From NCBI GenBank assembly GCA_016936555.1, contig JAFGXR010000012.1:1-41028 (forward strand): DNA of 41,028 nt. The letters are read 5' to 3'. The notes under the pieces were generated by a model. That model had not been told where the DNA came from. It did not search any database and saw only the letters and a list, made by a program, of their open reading frames with translations. Made by a program: the position numbers and the translations under genes. Origin of the DNA: Spirochaetales bacterium. Its GTDB lineage: Bacteria > Spirochaetota > Spirochaetia > DSM-2461. Position 1 is the first letter of the stretch, and each line of letters starts with the position of its first letter. This document shows, piece by piece, positions 5,865-36,549 of the stretch.

Positions 5865-6293
5865 ATGATTAGTTTTATTTATTCTCCGGTACAGATCGCC
5901 CCGGTTGTGGAAGTTCCTCTTTTCTGCGATCTGATCAAGGCGGGCTTTCCCTCTCCCGCCGATGACTACTCGGACAGCGCACTCGATTTCAACGAGTACC
6001 TCATAAAAAACCGCGCCTCCACCTTTATAGTCCGCGTCCAGGGCGACTCCATGATCGGAGCGGGAATCGACACGGGCGATCTTCTCGTCGTGGACCGCTC
6101 CATAAAGCCTGAACAGGGGCGGATCGTCGTAGCCGTGGTCGATAGCGAGTTTACCGTCAAAAGGCTGCACCGCGAACTGGGGCGCTGGTGCCTCCTCCCG
6201 GAAAACCCCGACTATCCCGTCATCGAAATCACCGGAGAAATGGATTTCCAGGTGTGGGGAGTGGTCACCCACGCCATCCACAGCTTCCTATGA
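5865..6293 (+). CDS. umuD: UmuD-like S24 peptidase, translesion polymerase subunit
   Basis: The 142-residue protein has the length and layout of UmuD. In characterised members it cleaves itself when bound to RecA filaments and then activates UmuC. Self-cleavage site: Ala26-Gly27 in KAGFPSP. Catalytic dyad: Ser62 in VQGDSMIGAGI and Lys99 in FTVKRL, matching the Ser60/Lys97 spacing of E. coli UmuD. The C-terminal strands include WGVVTHAIHSF. The stop overlaps the umuC start (ATGA), so the two are translationally coupled. The start codon lies 6 nt after a -10 box, which suggests a leaderless message. No SOS box could be found, so damage control is inferred from the family only. Confidence 0.94.
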   Translation: MISFIYSPVQIAPVVEVPLFCDLIKAGFPSPADDYSDSALDFNEYLIKNRASTFIVRVQGDSMIGAGIDTGDLLVVDRSIKPEQGRIVVAVVDSEFTVKRLHRELGRWCLLPENPDYPVIEITGEMDFQVWGVVTHAIHSFL

Positions 6294-7537
6294 AGTACGC
6301 TCTGGTGGACTGCAATACCTTCTACGCCTCCTGCGAGAAGGTGTTCCGGCCCGATCTGAAAAACAGACCGGTTATCGTTCTCTCCAACAACGACGGGTGC
6401 GTCGTCGCCATGAGCCGCGAGGCCAGGGCTCTGGGGATTCCCCGCGGGATCCCCCTTTTCAAGGTGGAGTCCCACATAAAAAAATACGATATCGCCGTCT
6501 TTTCATCGAATTACACGCTCTATCACGACCTGTCCTCGCGGGTCATGAACATCCTGCGCAATTTCGCTTCCGAACTGGAGGTGTACTCCATCGACGAGGC
6601 CTTTCTCATACTGGGGGGGGAGAGTCAGGACGATATAGCCCGGCTCATTCGGGGAACGGTTATGACCTGGACGGGAATTCCTGTGTCCGTGGGGATCGGC
6701 CCGACCAAGACACTGGCCAAAGCGGCCAACAAGGTAGCCAAACAACGCCCTGAAGGCTATTTCGACTTCAGCAGCCGTGACAGCCGGCTCTTTCTTAAAG
6801 ATCTCGAAGTGGGGGATATCTGGGGAATAGGCCGCCAGTATCAGGCCTTTCTCAACAGAAACGGGATTTTTACAGCCCTTCAGCTGACACAGCAGAGCGA
6901 CTCCTGGGTCAAGAAAAATCTAACTATGGTGGGTCTGAGGACAAAATGGGAGCTCGAGGGAAAACCGTCGATTGATATGGAGCAGGCCCCCCCCCCGAAA
7001 AAGGGGATCCTCTCCTCCAAAAGCTTCAGCTATCCCGTAACGGACCTTCTGGACCTGATGGAGGCGGCAGCCGATTACGGAACAACGGCGACGGGAAAGC
7101 TCAGAAAGCAGAAATCGGTGTGCCGCTATGTCAACATATCCCTTTCGACCAATTACTTCCGCCAGGGAGACCGTCAGTATTCCAATGCCGCCACAATTGA
7201 GCTCGCCGTCCCCAGCGCCTACCCCCCCGATATCATCAGCGCGGCACGGCGCGGGCTGGAACAGATTTACCGCAAAGGATTCAAATACAAGAAAATAACC
7301 GTTTATCTCACCGGGATAGAGGATGAGAAGAGAGGCCAGCTGGATCTGTTCCTCAAGGAAGACCCGAGGAAATACCGGATTATGGAATCGGTGGACAGGA
7401 TAAACCGGAAGTACGGGCGGAACACGGTCAACTGTATGAACATTCGGGAAACGAGCCACTGGCAGATGAAGCGGGAGCAGCTGTCTCCCTGCTACACCAC
7501 GAACTGGAATGAACTGCCCCGTATTTCCTCCGGATAA
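6290..7537 (+). CDS. umuC: UmuC, Y-family DNA polymerase V catalytic subunit
   Basis: The 415-residue polymerase carries out error-prone synthesis past DNA lesions. Motifs seen: MKYALVDCNTFYASCE with catalytic Asp7, VYSIDEAFL with Asp102-Glu103, and the palm/little-finger regions, including SVGIGPTKTLAKAANKVAK. Length is close to E. coli UmuC (422). I chose ATG 6290 over the in-frame ATG at 6188: the latter would add 34 residues with no homology before the canonical MKYALVDCN start and would overlap most of the end of umuD. The ATGA overlap with umuD supports this. Two homopolymer runs lie inside the frame: G8 at 6613-6620 and C10 at 6987-6996 (encoding PPP). Confidence 0.95.
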   Translation: MKYALVDCNTFYASCEKVFRPDLKNRPVIVLSNNDGCVVAMSREARALGIPRGIPLFKVESHIKKYDIAVFSSNYTLYHDLSSRVMNILRNFASELEVYSIDEAFLILGGESQDDIARLIRGTVMTWTGIPVSVGIGPTKTLAKAANKVAKQRPEGYFDFSSRDSRLFLKDLEVGDIWGIGRQYQAFLNRNGIFTALQLTQQSDSWVKKNLTMVGLRTKWELEGKPSIDMEQAPPPKKGILSSKSFSYPVTDLLDLMEAAADYGTTATGKLRKQKSVCRYVNISLSTNYFRQGDRQYSNAATIELAVPSAYPPDIISAARRGLEQIYRKGFKYKKITVYLTGIEDEKRGQLDLFLKEDPRKYRIMESVDRINRKYGRNTVNCMNIRETSHWQMKREQLSPCYTTNWNELPRISSG

Positions 7538-7578: not shown

Positions 7579-8967
7579 ATGTCACAAATGAGCGTACTTA
7601 TAGTTGAAGATGATAATCTCCAGAGAAAATACATTGAATCTCTCTTCGAAGAAATTAAGCAACCCGTTTTTGAATTATTCTCAGCCGACAGCATGGAGCC
7701 GGCTCTGGAAATCGTCAGGAGAAGAAATATAGACCTGGTCCTGACCGACTATATGATGCCGGGCGGATCGGGAATGGATCTTCTAAAAGCGGTTAAGGAA
7801 ATCAACCCTCATATAGATGTTGCCCTGCTCACAGCTCAGACAGACATTCAGATTGCGGTCGACCTGATGAAGGAAGGAGCCAGAGATTATCTGACAAAAC
7901 CGGTAACGGCTCCTATGCTTCAGAAACTGCTGCTTTCCGTCGAGGAAAAAAGCCTTCTTGTCCGGGAAAACCGGATGCTCAGAGAGCAGCTCGAGGAGAA
8001 ACACGGATTTCAGTCCATCATTTCCCAGAGCGGCACCATGGAAAACATACTCAACACAGCCTGGAGGATCTCCGCCAGCGACGCATCGGTTCTTATAACC
8101 GGCGAAAGCGGAACAGGAAAGGAGATGCTGGCCAATGCCATTCACTATGCCAGCTCGCGCAAAGATAAAATCATGCGGGTGGTCAACATTGCCGCTCTGT
8201 CGGAGACACTTATCGACAGCGAGCTCTTCGGTCATGTGAAGGGAGCTTTTACCGGAGCGGTAAGCGAAAAAAGCGGTGTTTTCGAAATAGCCGATGGCGG
8301 AACCCTTTTTATAGATGAAGTGGGAGACATCCCTATGGCCGTCCAGGTTAAGCTTTTAAGAACCATTCAGTTCGGACAGATCCAGAAGGTCGGCTCGGAA
8401 AAACTTGAAACCTGTGATATACGGATAATCGCCGCGACGAACAAAGATCTGAAGAAAATGATTGAAGAGGGGACATTCCGGCAGGACCTCTATTACAGGC
8501 TGAATGTCGTGCATATCGATATTCCGCCCCTGAGAATGAGAAAGGCCGATATCACACCTCTTATCAACCATTTCGTGGAGAAATTCAGCCACAAAAACCG
8601 CAAGGAGATAACTGGAGTATCCCATGACGCCATGGACGCTCTGATGAAATACGAGTATCCCGGAAACATCAGGGAGCTTGAAAACATCATCGAAAGAGCC
8701 GTTATCTTCAGCCGTTCCAATACGATAAAAATGATAGATCTCCCCCCGCTTATAGATATGGCCAGGGATGAAAAGAACAGCCGGGTCCTCCTGAACAAAA
8801 ATTTCGATGAATTGATGATAGGCTACGAAACCGATCTCATAGTCCAGGCCATGAAAGAATCGGAAGGGAACAAAAGCGAAGCGGCGAGAAAGCTCGGCAT
8901 CAGCGAAAGAAGAATACGGTCCAGGATTCAAATTCTCGACATAGATACATCTGAATGGGAAAAATAA
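7579..8967 (+). CDS. NtrC-family sigma-54-dependent response regulator
   Basis: The 462-residue protein has three domains. The receiver (1-120) has Asp11/Asp12, phospho-acceptor Asp57 in LVLTDYMMPGG and Lys107. The AAA+ sigma-54 activation domain (about 145-375) has Walker A GESGTGKE at 175-182, the sigma-54 contact loop GAFTGA at 222-227 and Walker B TLFIDEV at 242-248. A Fis-type HTH ends it (about 430-450, NKSEAARKLGISERRIRSRI). Such proteins bind upstream sites and, once phosphorylated, drive open-complex formation by sigma-54 RNA polymerase. It lies 205 bp upstream of a pilin gene with a -24/-12 promoter, so it is the obvious candidate activator; no partner histidine kinase is encoded here. 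ATG 7588 (MSVLIVEDD) is an alternative start. Target and kinase are inferred. Confidence 0.95.
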   Translation: MSQMSVLIVEDDNLQRKYIESLFEEIKQPVFELFSADSMEPALEIVRRRNIDLVLTDYMMPGGSGMDLLKAVKEINPHIDVALLTAQTDIQIAVDLMKEGARDYLTKPVTAPMLQKLLLSVEEKSLLVRENRMLREQLEEKHGFQSIISQSGTMENILNTAWRISASDASVLITGESGTGKEMLANAIHYASSRKDKIMRVVNIAALSETLIDSELFGHVKGAFTGAVSEKSGVFEIADGGTLFIDEVGDIPMAVQVKLLRTIQFGQIQKVGSEKLETCDIRIIAATNKDLKKMIEEGTFRQDLYYRLNVVHIDIPPLRMRKADITPLINHFVEKFSHKNRKEITGVSHDAMDALMKYEYPGNIRELENIIERAVIFSRSNTIKMIDLPPLIDMARDEKNSRVLLNKNFDELMIGYETDLIVQAMKESEGNKSEAARKLGISERRIRSRIQILDIDTSEWEK

Positions 8968-9005
8968 GTCGACAATAATGTCGAACGACAGAACCGGTTA
9001 GTCGA
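8968..9005 (+). promoter_or_regulatory. candidate upstream activator sites for the sigma-54 pilus promoter
   Basis: This region repeats GTCGA at 8968, 8980 and 9001. It includes a perfect dyad TGTCG-AA-CGACA (8979-8990), GTCGAC (8968-8973) and AACCGGTT (8992-8999). It lies about 110-145 bp before the -24 box, a usual enhancer distance. The sequence between it and the promoter is A/T-rich (9057-9111) and may be bent. Binding by the adjacent NtrC-type regulator is inference. Confidence 0.45.
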
Positions 9006-9111
9006 ATTTAACAACCAACACAAAGGCGAAATCTTTATCCAATCTCCTTTAAAGCTAGAAAAAAAACAGATTCGAGGATTTTTATACTTATTTTTACATT
9101 TTTTTATTTTT

Positions 9112-9127
9112 TGGCACACTTAATGCA
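9112..9127 (+). promoter_or_regulatory. sigma-54 (-24/-12) promoter of the pilus operon
   Basis: TGGCACACTTAATGCA matches the consensus TGGCAC-N5-TTGCA with exact spacing and one mismatch (A for the first T of the -12 element). Transcription should start near 9138, leaving a leader of about 35 nt with an AAGAGG ribosome site at 9161-9166 before the ATG at 9173. Confidence 0.85.
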
Positions 9128-9172
9128 TATAGAATCCCGTAAACAAATTAAAACGACCAAAAGAGGTATAAA

Positions 9173-9649
9173 ATGAAAAATATGAAATTTATTATGACAC
9201 TGGCCATCGCGACCCTTATGACAATGCCCGCTGTTGCGGCAACTACGGGAACTCTGACTCTTACCGGAACTGTTAACGGAAATGTAGAAATCATAGTTAC
9301 TCCCGAAGCTGCAGCTTCCAACCTGGATCTACTCAATGACGCGACAGATCTCAAAGTCGCAACAGTAACTGAAAAAAGCAATACCGGATACGAAGTTACA
9401 GTAACATCGGCCAACTCTGCCGAACTGACCGGACAGAATGCCGCAACACCTGACACTCTGGCATACAGCCTCAAGTACGATGGAGCCGCCGTCAACTTCA
9501 CAGCAGGTTCAGCCCTTATCACCGACACGACTTCCCAGACAGGGACCAGCGGTATCGATAAAGATCTGACCATAAGTTACACAGGCAACGTTAACCTGAA
9601 AGCCGATACCTACGAAGATACACTGACATTTACAATCGTAGCCAAATAA
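9173..9649 (+). CDS. chaperone-usher major pilin subunit
   Basis: The 158-residue protein has a clear signal peptide (residues 1-22, ending PAVA). A small all-beta domain without cysteine follows. The mature N-terminus (TTGTLTLTGTVNG) alternates hydrophobic and polar residues, as expected for a donor strand. The C-terminus KADTYEDTLTFTIVAK matches the final strand of pilins in the alternate/archaic chaperone-usher families. High Thr, Ala and Val content also fits. In assembled pili each subunit is completed by the donor strand of the next. It is the first gene behind the sigma-54 promoter and is followed by a hairpin that should make it the most abundant product. Pilin identity rests on these features plus the downstream chaperone and usher; overall sequence similarity to known pilins was not tested. 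Confidence 0.82.
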   Translation: MKNMKFIMTLAIATLMTMPAVAATTGTLTLTGTVNGNVEIIVTPEAAASNLDLLNDATDLKVATVTEKSNTGYEVTVTSANSAELTGQNAATPDTLAYSLKYDGAAVNFTAGSALITDTTSQTGTSGIDKDLTISYTGNVNLKADTYEDTLTFTIVAK

Positions 9650-9677
9650 CTTAGAATTTAATCGTTACACGTTGAGA

Positions 9678-9704
9678 GGTCCGCGCTTTGCGGACCATCT
9701 TTTT
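9678..9704 (+). terminator. hairpin terminator or attenuator between pilin and chaperone genes
   Basis: A perfect 7-bp GC-rich stem (GGTCCGC with GCGGACC), a 5-nt loop and ATCTTTTT follow the pilin stop by 28 bp and precede the chaperone start by 21 bp. In an operon this would act as a partial terminator or 3' mRNA stabiliser, raising pilin over assembly proteins. Confidence 0.7.
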
Positions 9705-9725
9705 CCATTGAAGCCGGAGAGGAAT

Positions 9726-10463
9726 ATGAGAAAAAAAACAATATTGATCACGACATTATTGCTATTTGGTGTAATATCGGTTTTTTCTTTTCAATTGACT
9801 CCCATTTCCGCAGAGCTGACCCCGACAGGATCCGGATCAATTCAAAACTTCAAAGTATTAAACAATACCGGAGAGATAATTGCCGTCCAGTTGAGCATGC
9901 ATACGCGCTCCACGATGGTAACGGGCGAAGAAATCAACGAACCGGCAGATCATTTATTTATCGTCTATCCCGCACAGATAATTCTGAAACCCGGAGATGA
10001 ACAGATCGTCAGAGTGCAGTGGAAAGGCGAAACAGAATTGGCGGTAGAACGCCCCTTCAGAATCATAGCCGAACAGCTGCCAGTTGATTTCTCTCAGGAA
10101 AGTTCTGTCACTGGCGGTCTGAAAATAATGTTCCGCTACATCGGTTCCGTATATGTCGGCGATAAAATCATGAAATCCGACGTAAAAGTCGATAAAGTAG
10201 AAAGAAGAACCGGCCTCTCGGGGCAGGATGAGCTCTCGGTGACGCTCTATAACAGCGGTACGGCTCATGCGATACTTGATAATCTGAAACTGAATCTCAC
10301 AGATTCAAATGGGAATATCTTAAAGACTCTGGAGGGAGAGTCTCTCGATGGAATCGAAGGCGAAAACATCCTGGCTGGAGAAAAAAGAGAATTTGCTCTC
10401 AATATTCCTCCCGATCTTACAGAGAGAGAACTGAATGCCAATATTTCGTATAGAGACAGCTAA
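9726..10463 (+). CDS. periplasmic pilus-assembly chaperone (PapD-like)
   Basis: The 245-residue protein begins with a signal peptide (about 1-22, hydrophobic TILITTLLLFGVISVFS). Two Ig-like domains follow. Family marks: the N-terminal strand FQLTPISAELTPTG, a V/N-rich VLNNTGEIIAVQL strand, and the block YPAQIILKPGDEQIVRVQWKG followed by ERPFRIIAEQLPV. That block is the G1 strand and cleft region which holds pilin subunits. In the family the chaperone donates this strand to unfolded subunits and delivers them to the usher. I chose ATG 9726: it is preceded by GGAGAGGA and opens the signal peptide. An upstream TTG at 9672 would place the terminator hairpin inside the gene. The 3' end overlaps the usher start by 29 bp. 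Confidence 0.93.
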   Translation: MRKKTILITTLLLFGVISVFSFQLTPISAELTPTGSGSIQNFKVLNNTGEIIAVQLSMHTRSTMVTGEEINEPADHLFIVYPAQIILKPGDEQIVRVQWKGETELAVERPFRIIAEQLPVDFSQESSVTGGLKIMFRYIGSVYVGDKIMKSDVKVDKVERRTGLSGQDELSVTLYNSGTAHAILDNLKLNLTDSNGNILKTLEGESLDGIEGENILAGEKREFALNIPPDLTERELNANISYRDS

Positions 10464-13299
10464 ATCTAAATTTACAATATCTCTGCTCTTTGCCCTTCTT
10501 TTCATTCTGGAAAATCTGAACTCACAATCGACTCTTCTTCTCGTAAACCAATCCGAACCTGAGTATTTGTCCCGGTTGTCCGAAATCATTTCGGATATCA
10601 ATCAGTCGTTCAGGAACAATACAAACCATAAAATTGAAGTCCCCGATTCAGAAGAAAGATTTCTCCCGCCCCGGGACGTGAGCTATTACCTGGAACAGGC
10701 ATACATCAGTAATTACAGTTTCGTCGTCATTAACAATTTCTCCATCAGCGACAGCAACATTTCCATTGAATCGACCGCTTATAGAGCCGATAACGGAGAA
10801 TCTGTTTTCACTCTCAACTCCTCAGGATCAATCAGCCTGGGTCTTGATACAAAGATCAATTTTATCATCAGGAAAATAAACCAGAAACTCATCGATGTGC
10901 AAAAAGAGATCGAAGAAGAGAAAACCGGGGCTCCTGATGAAACAGGTATTTTTCTTTCGGTTTTCGGAGAACAGCCTCCGCAGGAGATTCCTGAAATCGA
11001 AGTTCCTCTTTTTATAAACAGCAAATACGACAGTCAGGTAAGTATCATCCCGAATGGAGATGGATCAATCAAGATTCATTATGATTCACTTTCTGAACGT
11101 CTGCTCCCCCTGGTGACAGATTATTTCGCATCGAGGTTCTCTGAAACTGATTTAGACGGGGATTATATTACAATTGAAGCGCTTAGCCGGATGGGAATAG
11201 AAGGGGAATACAGCGATTCACAGCTGCTTCTGATTCTGACGATTCCCGTAGATTTGCTGAAAGAACAGAGGATTGCATTCAGAAAAGATTCCACTCTGCT
11301 GTCGAGCGATATAACAAACCAGGCTCCATTCAGCTTCTATATAAACCTTTTCCACAATCAGCAATGGTCCTGGGATTCCATCGGAGCCAATAATGAACAC
11401 CAGTTTCCCGGCTCATTAACCTTCGAAACGGCGTTTAACTTCCGCGATTGGGTTTTATCAGCGGATTACACATTGAACTATCCCGACAGTAGCGAGCTGC
11501 CTTCATTTGATATCACCCGGGACTTTCAGAAAATTTCCTCACGCCTGACTGCAGGTCACTATTCAGTCGAAAGCCGGGGCTACCAGAGCTTCGGTCGCTA
11601 TCAGGGTATCAGTTTCAAAAAAATGCCGGAAATCAGTATGTCTCCCCGCAGGGAAAACCCTCTCTACGATTTTACAATCGAATCACCTTCTTCCGTTCGT
11701 ATATATATCAATGGCATTCTGGTAAAGAGCGCCGATCTTGATACGGGACGATACAGCCTGATCGATTTTCCCCTCGCCGCCGGAGTCAATGAAGTAACAC
11801 TGAAAATTGAAGACAGTTACGGAAATAAAGAGGAAGTGGATTTCTTTGTCCCTCTGGCAGTCAGAGGTCTTAAAAGGGGAGATATGTCATATTCAGCTTC
11901 CGCCGGCATCCCGCCCTATGTTTTGGAACCGCCACTTATCTCCGGTCACTTTATATACGGATTCACCAGTTTCTTTACAGGTGGTATCAACTTTCAAAGC
12001 GATTTCAATAGTGAACTGGCCGGACTGACTCTCATCATTCCGACTCTGGCCGGAACAATTGACCTGGAAACGGCGCAAAGCTGGTCTCACGACAATGGGT
12101 TCGGATTTTCAGCTCTCATTTCCTATTATTTCGCTCCCGCGGGCAATCGCCGTTTACCGACTTTCAGTCTTTTCGGACGCTATAACAGTCCCGCCTTTTA
12201 CACAGTGGGCTCCGGCGGCGAAACAGTTCCCGATATTGCCGAATTCAAAGCCTCTCTATCCTATAATCTGTCGGACTTCATCCAGATTATTCCAAGAGGT
12301 TCGATCCGTCTTGGAAGAGAATCCAATGGAAACAGCGGATCGGTACAGCTGGGCTTGAGAAAACGGTTCTCAAAAAACATATCGGCCAGCCTGGACGCCG
12401 GAGTAGATTTTCCATCGCAAGGCGACCCCATATTCTCAGCATCGCTGATGCTGTCCATTCAGGACAGGGAAAAAGACCAGTCCTTAAGTATCAGAAGCGC
12501 AACATCCCAGCAAGGAGGAGATATTAACTGGAACAAGTCTTTTCCGGGTTCCGGCAACCCTTCTCTTTCCGCCGGATTATCAGGGCTGCCATTCAACGAG
12601 GGAACAAGCAGCACCCTATACGCAAGAGGCAGAAACTCGTTTAACCGTTTTAACGGCTCTCTATCCGCATCATTGAACAGAAGTTTCGAAGGAGACTTCT
12701 CCTATTTCGCTCAAAGCCGCCTCTCTTCCGCACTGGTTTTCGCAGGAAAACACCTGGCGGTTTCAAGGCCGGTATCCGACAGTTTCGCTATTATCGTACC
12801 GCAGTACAATCTGGCGAATATCGATGTGGGCGTCAATCCCAACAGCTATGGTTATGACAGCCAATCGGATTTTCTCGGCAATCCGGTTCTCAACAATCTC
12901 AGGTCTTACAATGCTCAAAGAGTCATAATCAATGTGACCGAACCGGAAACCGATATCGATACGGAGCTGGGGGACTCATCCTTTTTCCTCAACCCCCGTT
13001 ACAGAAGCGGCACCGTCATTTATACCGGCACGAAATTTAATGTATATTTAACAGGTAGGCTCATAGATGAAACGGGGTCACCTCTTCCTTTAGAAACTGG
13101 AAAATTAACTGACAGGGAAGGTGAATCCAGGCTGTTTTTTACAGACAGAGAGGGAATCTTCTATATCTACGGACTCCAGAGAGGAGAATGTGAGATCAAT
13201 CTGAACAACCACCCCTTCACATTGGATTTCCGGATTCCCGAAGATACAGAGAAAATATTCGATCTTGGTGATTTGACGATTCAACGGTCAGACAGGTAA
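10435..13299 (+). CDS. outer-membrane usher with an extra N-terminal domain
   Basis: The 954-residue protein has a signal peptide (about 1-31). It then shows an unexpected region at 32-185, described under findings. The usher N-terminal subunit-binding domain follows (about 186-280, VPLFINSKYDSQVSIIPN to LLLILTIPVDLL), then a long beta-barrel region rich in aromatic and Ser/Gly strands. The plug domain is inserted at about 412-470 (YDFTIESPSSVRIYINGIL, GRYSLIDFPLAAGVNEVTL). A C-terminal Ig-like domain runs from about 868 to 954 (VYLTGRLIDETGSPLP, DREGIFYIYGL). Ushers accept chaperone-subunit complexes and secrete the growing pilus. Total length exceeds the usual 800-870 because of the extension. 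Translation starts within the chaperone gene, so the two are coupled. It is cysteine-poor; the two-cysteine pair of gamma ushers is not evident at the C-terminus. Confidence 0.9.
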   Translation: MPIFRIETAKSKFTISLLFALLFILENLNSQSTLLLVNQSEPEYLSRLSEIISDINQSFRNNTNHKIEVPDSEERFLPPRDVSYYLEQAYISNYSFVVINNFSISDSNISIESTAYRADNGESVFTLNSSGSISLGLDTKINFIIRKINQKLIDVQKEIEEEKTGAPDETGIFLSVFGEQPPQEIPEIEVPLFINSKYDSQVSIIPNGDGSIKIHYDSLSERLLPLVTDYFASRFSETDLDGDYITIEALSRMGIEGEYSDSQLLLILTIPVDLLKEQRIAFRKDSTLLSSDITNQAPFSFYINLFHNQQWSWDSIGANNEHQFPGSLTFETAFNFRDWVLSADYTLNYPDSSELPSFDITRDFQKISSRLTAGHYSVESRGYQSFGRYQGISFKKMPEISMSPRRENPLYDFTIESPSSVRIYINGILVKSADLDTGRYSLIDFPLAAGVNEVTLKIEDSYGNKEEVDFFVPLAVRGLKRGDMSYSASAGIPPYVLEPPLISGHFIYGFTSFFTGGINFQSDFNSELAGLTLIIPTLAGTIDLETAQSWSHDNGFGFSALISYYFAPAGNRRLPTFSLFGRYNSPAFYTVGSGGETVPDIAEFKASLSYNLSDFIQIIPRGSIRLGRESNGNSGSVQLGLRKRFSKNISASLDAGVDFPSQGDPIFSASLMLSIQDREKDQSLSIRSATSQQGGDINWNKSFPGSGNPSLSAGLSGLPFNEGTSSTLYARGRNSFNRFNGSLSASLNRSFEGDFSYFAQSRLSSALVFAGKHLAVSRPVSDSFAIIVPQYNLANIDVGVNPNSYGYDSQSDFLGNPVLNNLRSYNAQRVIINVTEPETDIDTELGDSSFFLNPRYRSGTVIYTGTKFNVYLTGRLIDETGSPLPLETGKLTDREGESRLFFTDREGIFYIYGLQRGECEINLNNHPFTLDFRIPEDTEKIFDLGDLTIQRSDR

Positions 13300-13304
13300 G
13301 AAAT

Positions 13305-14252
13305 ATGAAGAAAATTGCAAGAAGATTGTTAATAGTAATCCTTCTGAGCACGGCATTGCCTATACAGGCTCAGAACCTCGGCTGGTCAGGCGGATCATGG
13401 ATTGCAAACAGAATTGAATACGACGCCAGCAGAGAGCTGGTTCTGGATATCACGGTCACTGTCTCGCACAGCGGAAATGCAACACCCTACTTCATTGTTG
13501 TGACCGGCGGGAAGGAAGGCAATACATCGGCACGGGCCCTGAGCACCTGGAACGGAGAAAAATTGTATTATCACATCTACGATAACGTCATAGATAAAAA
13601 TATCCTGAAAGATTTTTCCGATAATCCGGGCTATGCCAATGTTCTCAGCGGCAGTTTCAATTACAGCGCATCGACCCAATACCGGAACCACACATTCTCT
13701 CTGGTCATACCGGTTCCGGCTCAGTTTCCCTCCATGGCCTCAGAATACAGTGATTCCGTAAATGTCATTCTCTACCAGGGAACACTTTCAAGCCCGACCC
13801 GGCTATGGAATGACAGAACAGTCAATACGGTTGCCAACGTGTCGGTTTCCAGCCTTCAGGTCTGTGAAGTATCCATTGTCGATACGAATGCCCCGTTCGA
13901 CAAAACCAGTACAGACAAGAACTTCGCCTTCGGAACATTGACAACAGGAGAGAAACAATCGGCAGATATCATAGTCCGCTCGACTGAACCCTATGAACTT
14001 CGTCTGAATTCTGATAACAATGGCGTATTGGCCAGAACAGATGCCGTCGATCCGGGATCGACCATTCCCTATTACTGCTACATCAATGGAAGCCAGGTGA
14101 ACCTGAGTTCGGGTTACACTCAGGTCGCTTCCGGTCCCGAGACGCCTCCCGAAGGAGATCGTCATGAAATCGAAATTGAGATCGGAGATTTCTGGGGCAT
14201 CAGCACAGGCGATTACGAAGATATCATTTACGTGGAATTGATCAGCCAATAG
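13305..14252 (+). CDS. two-domain pilus tip subunit or adhesin
   Basis: The 315-residue secreted protein has a signal peptide (1-22, ending PIQA). An N-terminal beta domain (about 23-175) is rich in Asn, Ser and Tyr. The C-terminal pilin-like domain (about 180-315) has Cys187 (VCEVSIVD) and Cys258 (YYCYIN) placed as a disulfide pair, and FAFGTLTTGE, which resembles the spore-coat-U/archaic-pilin pattern. It ends with a beta strand (EDIIYVELISQ). The gene follows the usher by 5 bp. In archaic (Csu-type) operons the last gene after the usher encodes a two-domain tip adhesin, so a tip role is likely. The receptor is unknown. I infer the function from architecture and position, not from recognised similarity of the N-terminal domain. 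Confidence 0.72.
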   Translation: MKKIARRLLIVILLSTALPIQAQNLGWSGGSWIANRIEYDASRELVLDITVTVSHSGNATPYFIVVTGGKEGNTSARALSTWNGEKLYYHIYDNVIDKNILKDFSDNPGYANVLSGSFNYSASTQYRNHTFSLVIPVPAQFPSMASEYSDSVNVILYQGTLSSPTRLWNDRTVNTVANVSVSSLQVCEVSIVDTNAPFDKTSTDKNFAFGTLTTGEKQSADIIVRSTEPYELRLNSDNNGVLARTDAVDPGSTIPYYCYINGSQVNLSSGYTQVASGPETPPEGDRHEIEIEIGDFWGISTGDYEDIIYVELISQ

Positions 14253-14259
14253 TGAGAAT

Positions 14260-15288
14260 ATGAAAGACAAAGAAAATTTATTCGGAAAAACACTCCCCCA
14301 GCTAAAGGAGATCTGCAGCGACCTCAAACTCCCCGCCTTTACGGCGAAACAGATCTGCAGCTGGCTCTACGAAAAAAACGCATCTGACTTTGATGAGATG
14401 ACCAATATATCCAAAGCCAACCGCGCCCTTCTTACAGGAACATGCTCTATTGGTAAGGTGAAGCCAGAAAAAGTGAGCGTCTCCCGGGACGGCACGAAGA
14501 AATATCTCTTTGATCTGGGACAGAACCGGTTTATCGAAGCGGCCATGATTCCCGACGGGGACCGGAACACCCTCTGCCTCTCATCCCAGGCGGGCTGTAA
14601 AATGGGCTGTACCTTCTGCATGACGGCAAAACAGGGATTCCAGAGTCACCTGACTCCCGCGGAAATTCTGAGTCAGTTCACGGAGATTGAAGAAGCGGGA
14701 CGGATTACCAATATAGTCTATATGGGCATGGGCGAACCGATGGACAACATCGACAGCGTTCTGGCTACCCTGGACATACTCACCGCCGATTACGGCTACG
14801 CCATGAGCCCCAAGAGGATCACGGTCTCCACCATAGGCGTCATCCCCGCCATGAAGCGGTTCCTCGAAGAGAGCAAATGCCACCTGGCCATAAGCATTCA
14901 CAGCCCTTTCCCCGAAGAGCGTCAAAGGCTGATGCCTGTGGAGAAAAAATACCCTATTGAGGAGATTGTGGAAATTCTGAAACAGCACGATTTCGGTGGT
15001 CAGAGACGGGTCTCTTTCGAATATATCATGTTCGCGGGAGTCAATGACGACGACCGGCACAGCGCCGCTCTGTCCAGTCTCCTGAAAGGACTCGACACAA
15101 GGGTAAACCTTATCGGCTTCCACCCCATACCGGATTCAAATCTCAACGGATCGGCACGTCCGGTTATGGAAACCTTCCAGGCTCATCTCCAGAAAAAGGG
15201 AATTACGACAACAATCCGCCGCTCCCGGGGACAGGACATCGATGCGGCCTGCGGCCTCCTCTCCACCAAAGAAAGGCTGAATAATTAA
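14260..15288 (+). CDS. rlmN: 23S rRNA (adenine2503-C2)/tRNA (adenine37-C2)-methyltransferase RlmN
   Basis: The 342-residue radical-SAM enzyme methylates C2 of A2503 in 23S rRNA and of A37 in some tRNAs. The iron-sulfur cluster motif CX3CX2C is at Cys113, Cys117, Cys120 (GCKMGCTFC). The two catalytic cysteines of the family are present: Cys106 in NTLCLSS and Cys331 in IDAACG. Also seen are [11 protein letters not shown] and the final [13 protein letters not shown]. Length is normal. The ATG is 7 bp after the tip-subunit stop, so read-through transcription from the pilus operon is likely; no separate strong promoter is seen. The last 4 bp overlap the convergent folE gene. Confidence 0.96.
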
Positions 15289-35647: not shown

Positions 35648-35663
35648 TGGCATACATCTTGCT
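35648..35663 (+). promoter_or_regulatory. sigma-54 (-24/-12) promoter of the sigma-like gene
   Basis: TGGCATACATCTTGCT matches TGGCAC-N5-TTGCW with exact spacing and one mismatch. Transcription would start near 35674. A GGAGG ribosome site stands at 35689-35693 and the chosen ATG at 35704. Confidence 0.85.
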
Positions 35664-35703
35664 AATGTATATCCATCAATATGACATCGGAGGAATGAGA
35701 AAA

Positions 35704-36549
35704 ATGGAATCAATTACGGAGGCGGTGCTGAGATATCAGGATACGGGAGAAGGATACGATTCGCTGGTCGAGAGAATCAGCCTCATTATTTACAACTATC
35801 CGGACCGTATCGCCTCTTTATCGGAAGAAGACAAGTGTGATTTTTACCTGAGTTTCTTCACAAGAATAAAAGGGCTTATCAATAACTTCTCCTATCAGGG
35901 CCGGGCTTTTGAAGCCCTTCTGATCCAGACACTGAAGTGGCATTCGATCTCCTATCTGGCCAGACAGAAAAAAGAGAAACACCTGTTTGCCATGGAAATA
36001 AGGGAAGAGGAAATTCGGCTGAAAGATTTCCTGAGGACAGAATCCGGAGACAGGGGAACCGGCCGTATGGAAATAAAACTGAAGAACGATGCGTCCCGGA
36101 AAAGACTCCTCTTTCTGGTTCTGATGGACACACAGAATATCAGTGACAGCGAAATGGAAAGGTTTTCTGTAATATCCGGGTATGACCTGAACTGGCTTCT
36201 GGAGAAGAAAGACAGGATCAACTGCATGCTGCACGAAAGAAGCGGAAGGCTGTCCGACCTTCGGGAGAAACGGAACAATTATTTTTCCAAAATGCAGTAT
36301 TTTCAGATTCTTCTCTCAGAAGAAATCAATCCTGATAAAATCCGGATTCTGAAGGGGAAAATTTCATCATTGAAAAAACGGCTCGAGGATACGCGTAAGG
36401 AAATTGCAAAAGTTCCGGTCAGACCGACTCACAGCGAAATCGCCGAATTGCTGGGAATTCCCAAAGGAACTGTCGATTCGGGTCTGCACTATTTCCGTAA
36501 AAGAGTCGGCGATTCCCATCGGGAAATAAGTTATAGTCTAATTCCCTGA
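35704..36549 (+). CDS. sigma-70-like regulatory protein with a C-terminal HTH
   Basis: The 281-residue protein shows two parts of a sigma-factor layout. A helical region at about 55-95 (FTRIKGLINNFSYQGRAFEALLIQTLKWHSISYLARQKKEK) resembles sigma region 2. A C-terminal HTH (about 240-270, THSEIAELLGIPKGTVDSGLHYFRKRV) resembles sigma region 4.2. The middle (about 180-240) is strongly basic and coiled-coil-like, which is unusual. It could be a divergent sigma factor or a DNA-binding regulator derived from one. I chose ATG 35704: it has GGAGG 10 nt upstream, whereas the longer frame from 35659 begins inside the sigma-54 promoter. The gene is alone between a terminator and rdgB. Function is inferred. 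Confidence 0.7.
   Translation: MESITEAVLRYQDTGEGYDSLVERISLIIYNYPDRIASLSEEDKCDFYLSFFTRIKGLINNFSYQGRAFEALLIQTLKWHSISYLARQKKEKHLFAMEIREEEIRLKDFLRTESGDRGTGRMEIKLKNDASRKRLLFLVLMDTQNISDSEMERFSVISGYDLNWLLEKKDRINCMLHERSGRLSDLREKRNNYFSKMQYFQILLSEEINPDKIRILKGKISSLKKRLEDTRKEIAKVPVRPTHSEIAELLGIPKGTVDSGLHYFRKRVGDSHREISYSLIP

Follow-up and report, generated by a model that had tools for sequence, protein, structure and literature searches.

The locus studied here lies in a 41,028-nucleotide contig (the window) and comprises genes for a pilin, a PapD-like chaperone, an outer-membrane usher and a two-domain tip subunit, arranged in that order behind a -24/-12 site. A preliminary description had recognised this arrangement from motifs; its coordinates hold, and Pfam and fold matches agree with its chaperone, usher and tip calls. 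Directly 5′ of the pilus operon is a gene absent from that description, which encodes an NtrC-family response regulator with a receiver domain, a sigma-54 AAA+ domain and a Fis-type helix-turn-helix (Table 1). Nor did that description include the candidate dyad, the terminator-like hairpin or the additional usher N-terminal domain.

Table 1. Features of the pilus locus (window coordinates) and two giant surface protein genes elsewhere in the host genome (G000)
Feature	Position	Strand	Details
NtrC-family response regulator	7579-8967	+	Pfam Response_reg 6e-25, Sigma54_activat 8e-67, HTH_8 4e-8
Candidate enhancer (UAS) dyad	8969-8984	.	TCGACA-ATAA-TGTCGA; directly 3′ of activator stop codon
Predicted -24/-12 sigma-54 promoter	9112-9127	+	TGGCACACTTAATGCA; GG-N10-GC; 10/12 consensus positions
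Major pilin	9173-9649	+	158 aa; signal peptide; donor-strand-like N-terminus GTLTLTGTV; cysteines 0
Terminator-like hairpin and T run, pilin-chaperone gap	9678-9696	+	GGTCCGCGC-TTT-GCGGACC type stem, then ATCTTTTT
Periplasmic chaperone, PapD-like, archaic subtype	9726-10463	+	PapD_N 1.3e-5, above Pfam cut-off
Outer-membrane usher	10435-13299	+	954 aa; PF00577 (Usher) 5.9e-14, above cut-off
Extra usher N-terminal domain	10525-10935	+	~135 aa; profile search
Two-domain tip subunit, proposed adhesin	13305-14252	+	SCPU 2.5e-4, 0.6 bits below Pfam cut-off
Giant secreted protein	G000:C19 (L229:2343-7286)		~1.6 kaa; Pfam Big_7 (bacterial Ig) domains
Giant lipoprotein	G000:C72 (L233:4234-16965; also L230)		~4.2 kaa; Ig-like sequence, outside Pfam scan

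The host genome (4.73 Mb in 134 contigs, 95% complete) is placed in one genus with ‘Spirochaetaceae bacterium MAG4’ (G003) and ‘BB7’ (G001), both of which carry the operon among similar neighbouring genes. Because the genus and the neighbourhood are shared with these named Spirochaetaceae genomes, the host is a spirochaete, as had been supposed from the sequence. The umuC, activator, rlmN and folE genes beside the operon are 90-96% identical between the window and a further relative, G002. Just 5′ of the activator gene, a umuDC-like pair (an S24 peptidase and a Y-family polymerase; 5865-7537) is kept in the genus.

A divergent archaic-like pilus operon

Homologues of the pilin occupy the equivalent operon position in relatives, and a pilin profile also picks up pilins of non-spirochaete archaic-type operons, while Pfam and PDB profile searches with the pilin gave no match. 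Its translation lacks the cysteines regarded as invariant among archaic pilins. The chaperone ORF as listed begins with a TTG at 9672; an ATG at 9726 is preceded by GGAGAGG. A chaperone profile built from 12 relatives had CsuC as its only PDB match (4e-5). Pro, Arg and Tyr residues invariant in these relatives align with CsuC P59, R89 and Y116, 30 residues separating the Pro from the Arg. The alignment ends at residue 179, short of the archaic subunit-carboxylate anchor Tyr196, and is unsure at that end, near the second anchor Arg174. Such Pro, Arg and Tyr residues typify archaic chaperones, and the Arg is restricted to archaic and alternative chaperones (PMC4654587).

The usher comprises a barrel and plug (~aa 299-770) and a C-terminal domain (~849-949). 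FimD and PapC were the PDB matches of its profile, and its structural model (pLDDT 79, low in the N-terminal region) matched FimD in Foldseek (1.4e-38, TMt 0.68). Among 61 genomes, a profile of the extra N-terminal domain found ushers of the host and G002 only, together with one weak match (2.2e-4) in another host protein, encoded beside an Ig-like protein gene (L015/L235). The low-confidence model of this domain has a helix-strand-strand-strand-helix order. An MMM1/SMP lipid-binding assignment scored below the Pfam cut-off, and we make no claim of it. The tip profile matched CsuE (1.2e-3) and CsuA/B (1.7e-3) in the PDB, and the tip model (pLDDT 85) matched the folds of CfaE-CfaB (3e-10), CsuE (1e-9) and FimH (5e-8).

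A PapD-like chaperone, a barrel-plug usher and pilin subunits are thus encoded together, in an order conserved in many Spirochaetia, as in a chaperone-usher (CU) system. The archaic, Csu-type affinity that had been read from gene order is supported by matches specific to CsuC and CsuE, the latter to the two-domain tip, and by the three archaic-chaperone residues. The operon shares with the Csu pilus of Acinetobacter baumannii these matches and residues, as well as a first-placed pilin and a last-placed tip. However, Csu has three pilin genes where the spirochaete operon has one, which lacks cysteines, and the spirochaete system also differs in its host and in the extra usher N-terminal domain of two genomes. 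Because the pilin cysteines are absent, we classify the operon, on sequence criteria, as a divergent archaic-like lineage instead of filing it as a strict Csu member, although its pilus would presumably operate as Csu pili do. By fold, the architecture and presumed mechanism of its usher (barrel, plug and C-terminal domain) agree with those of FimD and PapC from the classical type 1 and P pili, but the spirochaete chaperone and tip sequences fall in the non-classical branch. In an usher tree with FimD alone as outgroup, and with CsuD and other family references left out, non-spirochaete ushers formed one group of their own (85% SH-aLRT) and spirochaete ushers fell into several separate lineages.

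The resemblance of the first tip domain to SCPU raises the possibility that the operon builds a surface coat or a capsule-like fibre with no adhesive role, of the kind that spore-coat-U proteins form in some bacteria; a single pilin without a solved relative by sequence would suit such a coat. Yet the two-domain tip is predicted to match CsuE, CfaE and FimH, and the apparent co-regulation with giant surface proteins described below suits adhesion, so that we give the coat reading a small though real chance.

A linked regulator and a predicted -24/-12 promoter

We propose, from its architecture and position, that the NtrC-family protein is a dedicated activator of the pilus operon. The host genome encodes RpoN; the immediate neighbours of the activator gene include no recognised kinase gene. 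The protein has the receiver, AAA+ and Fis-type helix-turn-helix domains of AtoC/ZraR-type NtrC activators, and likewise a dyad lies 5′ of the -24/-12 promoter. Unlike those activators, it scores under the equivalog thresholds of the listed NCBIfam models and belongs to a pilus-linked clade.

The putative promoter is intergenic, 45 bp 5′ of the pilin ATG, and its copy in G002 is identical though the rest of the upstream sequence diverges. A single exact -24/-12 match in 41 kb is insignificant taken alone. A second -24/-12-like site, TGGCATACATCTTGCT, lies at window positions 35648-35663, at the start of an unassigned ORF (35659-36549).

The activator gene adjoins the pilin gene in nine spirochaete operons, namely four of the host genus and those of G055, G340, G295, PLM2.Bin22 and CSSed165cm_582. 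A -24/-12 site (scores of 10-12 of 12) is present in every one of the nine, versus two of 18 unlinked operons (SZUA-426 and M74, where the sites are non-coding). This association gave p=1.2e-5 (Fisher), or p=2e-4 with the host genus counted once, values that are indicative because the operons are related sequences. Candidate promoters of CSSed162cmA_133 and DLM2.Bin42 fall within coding sequence and were kept out of the tally as not genuine; including them would give p=1.5e-4. In a tree, the nine linked activators group together, and 13 further NtrC-family proteins from these genomes fall outside their cluster (100/100). A paralogue on a long branch (L151) does not separate clearly from the linked clade, in part through a long-branch effect.

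The sigma-54 control put forward in the preliminary description is therefore supported, at the level of sequence, by RpoN, an adjacent activator and conserved promoter and enhancer anatomy. It is not general, because in many CU operons of spirochaetes neither the activator nor the promoter is present. Among Bdellovibrionota, three archaic-type operons (L113, L116, L118) have -24/-12-like sites 5′ of the pilin, with scores of 9-11 of 12.

A genuine archaic CU pilus could nonetheless be driven by a sigma-70-type promoter while the adjacent NtrC-family gene regulates some other target. Housekeeping promoters would be usual for pili, and a good -24/-12 site was missing from seven of the 12 operons of our first pass. 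Against this stands the presence of the site in every regulator-linked operon, across differing gene neighbourhoods. In addition, a consensus scan covering 8900-14400 lists nothing resembling a sigma-70 site in the stretch from the activator stop codon to the pilin. We consider sigma-70 control of the pilus improbable.

Within the transcription unit, the hairpin of the pilin-chaperone gap is possibly a leaky terminator, judging from its stem and T run. Hairpins occur in this gap in four other operons and are missing from most.

A candidate enhancer dyad and a probable wider regulon

The dyad pattern TCGMCM-N4-KGKCGA (TCGMCMNNNNKGKCGA) occurs at 11 sites in 10 loci of the 4.73 Mb host genome, and at four of these loci, the pilus locus included, a -24/-12 site follows 3′ of the dyad. 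Behind the activator gene the dyad is single in the host and G295, whereas G340, PLM2.Bin22 and CSSed165cm_582 (G340, G434, G435) have tandem pairs spaced by 30-31 bp. These last three genomes have 9-11 sites each and G295 has 52. No dyad of the TCGMCM-N4-KGKCGA form was found 5′ of the pilus in G055, and the pilus dyad is variant or weak in G002, MAG4 and BB7.

Because the pattern was originally spotted by eye in pilus loci, only non-pilus sites test it. At three of the nine non-pilus host loci a -24/-12 site lies 58-111 bp on, for which the probability by chance is ~1e-7 (the -24/-12 pattern used, TGGCAYN5WTGCW, has 34 sites genome-wide in the host). The three loci precede a gene for a 495-aa lipoprotein (L169) and the two giant surface protein genes of Table 1. 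Promoter and dyad are kept at both giant genes in G002 and at the Big_7 gene in G003; in G055, which belongs to another family, they are found at its Big_7 gene. We rejected a reading in which the G055 candidate promoter serves a short ORF: the giant gene begins ~190 bp further on. Relatives of both giant proteins are encoded side by side in G055, G001 and G007.

These observations suggest that the pilus activator probably also activates the two giant surface proteins and the lipoprotein, and an NtrC/sigma-54 adhesion regulon that includes the archaic pilus is the most likely interpretation of the shared sites. A functional parallel is found in CupE of Pseudomonas aeruginosa, where PprA-PprB is the activator and a large secreted adhesin is expressed along with the pilus (PMC10104325): there too, an archaic CU pathway is under a two-component response regulator alongside a large adhesin. 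The regulators differ, PprA-PprB standing in place of the spirochaete NtrC-family protein with its -24/-12 promoter and putative enhancer. Csu is reported to be under BfmRS (PMC7315123), in contrast to the sigma-54 activator that we infer for the spirochaete operon.

Distribution, history and proposed working

The preliminary description had called for a search of spirochaete genomes, and our search found that an equivalent operon recurs across Spirochaetia. Ushers of this kind were present in 13 of the 61 relatives searched and in 38 of 393 genomes sampled from across the phylum (3 of the 38 at weak E-values), and most of these spirochaete operons have the gene order pilin-chaperone-usher-tip. 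In family f9 (L132-L136) the ushers are longer (1100-1250 aa) and a chaperone is present, with no pilin or tip recognised nearby. Genome contigs scanned with the chaperone alignment also yielded relatives in Cyanobacteria, Bdellovibrionota, Proteobacteria, Acidobacteria, Verrucomicrobia and Elusimicrobia.

The earlier statement that CU pili are not a recognised spirochaete feature stands in part. Two papers on the archaic pathway name only Proteobacteria, Cyanobacteria and Deinococcus-Thermus as its hosts (PMC4654587, PMC10104325), but the table of a 2016 survey lists Spirochaetae among the phyla with fimbrial ushers (PMC4827864). Our literature search, which covered few subscription journals, found no paper on sigma-54-controlled CU pili or on spirochaete CU pili.

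Within the genus, the pilus proteins of the window and G002 are 49-60% identical, versus 74-96% for flanking proteins, so that the pilus genes evolve much faster than their surroundings; at this slot MAG4 and BB7 carry operons that diverge far more. In the tree, the window and G002 join B32_G16 (97/94) and not the same-genus MAG4 and BB7, and an AU test does not reject a single genus clade (p=0.075). This grouping suggests that, within the genus, the pilus operon may have been exchanged at its original site. The drop in identity from flanks to operon could also be taken to mean a contaminant contig or recent import from a proteobacterium, which is highly improbable given flanks syntenic with same-genus genomes and an usher tree that sets non-spirochaete ushers apart.

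We regard it as likely that a free-living spirochaete here has a four-gene archaic-like CU pilus operon that is under sigma-54 control and belongs to an adhesion regulon. What the sequences show directly is the gene content, the matching folds, the anatomy of promoter and dyads, and co-occurrence; binding, activation, transcript stoichiometry, the fibre and adhesion are proposed from them as follows. A signal would act on the upstream NtrC-type response regulator, which would bind the dyads just behind its own gene and loop to RNA polymerase-sigma-54 at the -24/-12 promoter, where its ATPase would open the promoter. Some transcripts would end at the hairpin 3′ of the pilin gene, giving a surplus of pilin. 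In the periplasm, the chaperone would cap pilin and tip subunits via donor-strand complementation, and the usher would secrete and polymerise them into a presumably adhesive fibre with the two-domain subunit at its tip. The same regulator would co-activate the two giant surface proteins and the lipoprotein, making the pilus one part of the regulon.

We lean towards a broader reading in which a dedicated NtrC/sigma-54 regulator controls the archaic pilus in several environmental spirochaete families, and giant surface proteins too in at least two families. This would amount to a regulon for sessile life among bacteria whose phylum is noted for its motility, and sigma-54 control of archaic pili possibly extends to Bdellovibrionota. 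A conserved, regulated archaic-like CU system in spirochaetes would extend the range of a pathway reported chiefly from Proteobacteria, Cyanobacteria and Deinococcus-Thermus. The linked promoter, enhancer and activator make the putative regulon predictable from sequence, and the regulon would tie to the pilus surface proteins of thousands of residues that are otherwise unlinked to it. For the organisms themselves, a CU pilus suggests a capacity for a switch to attached life.
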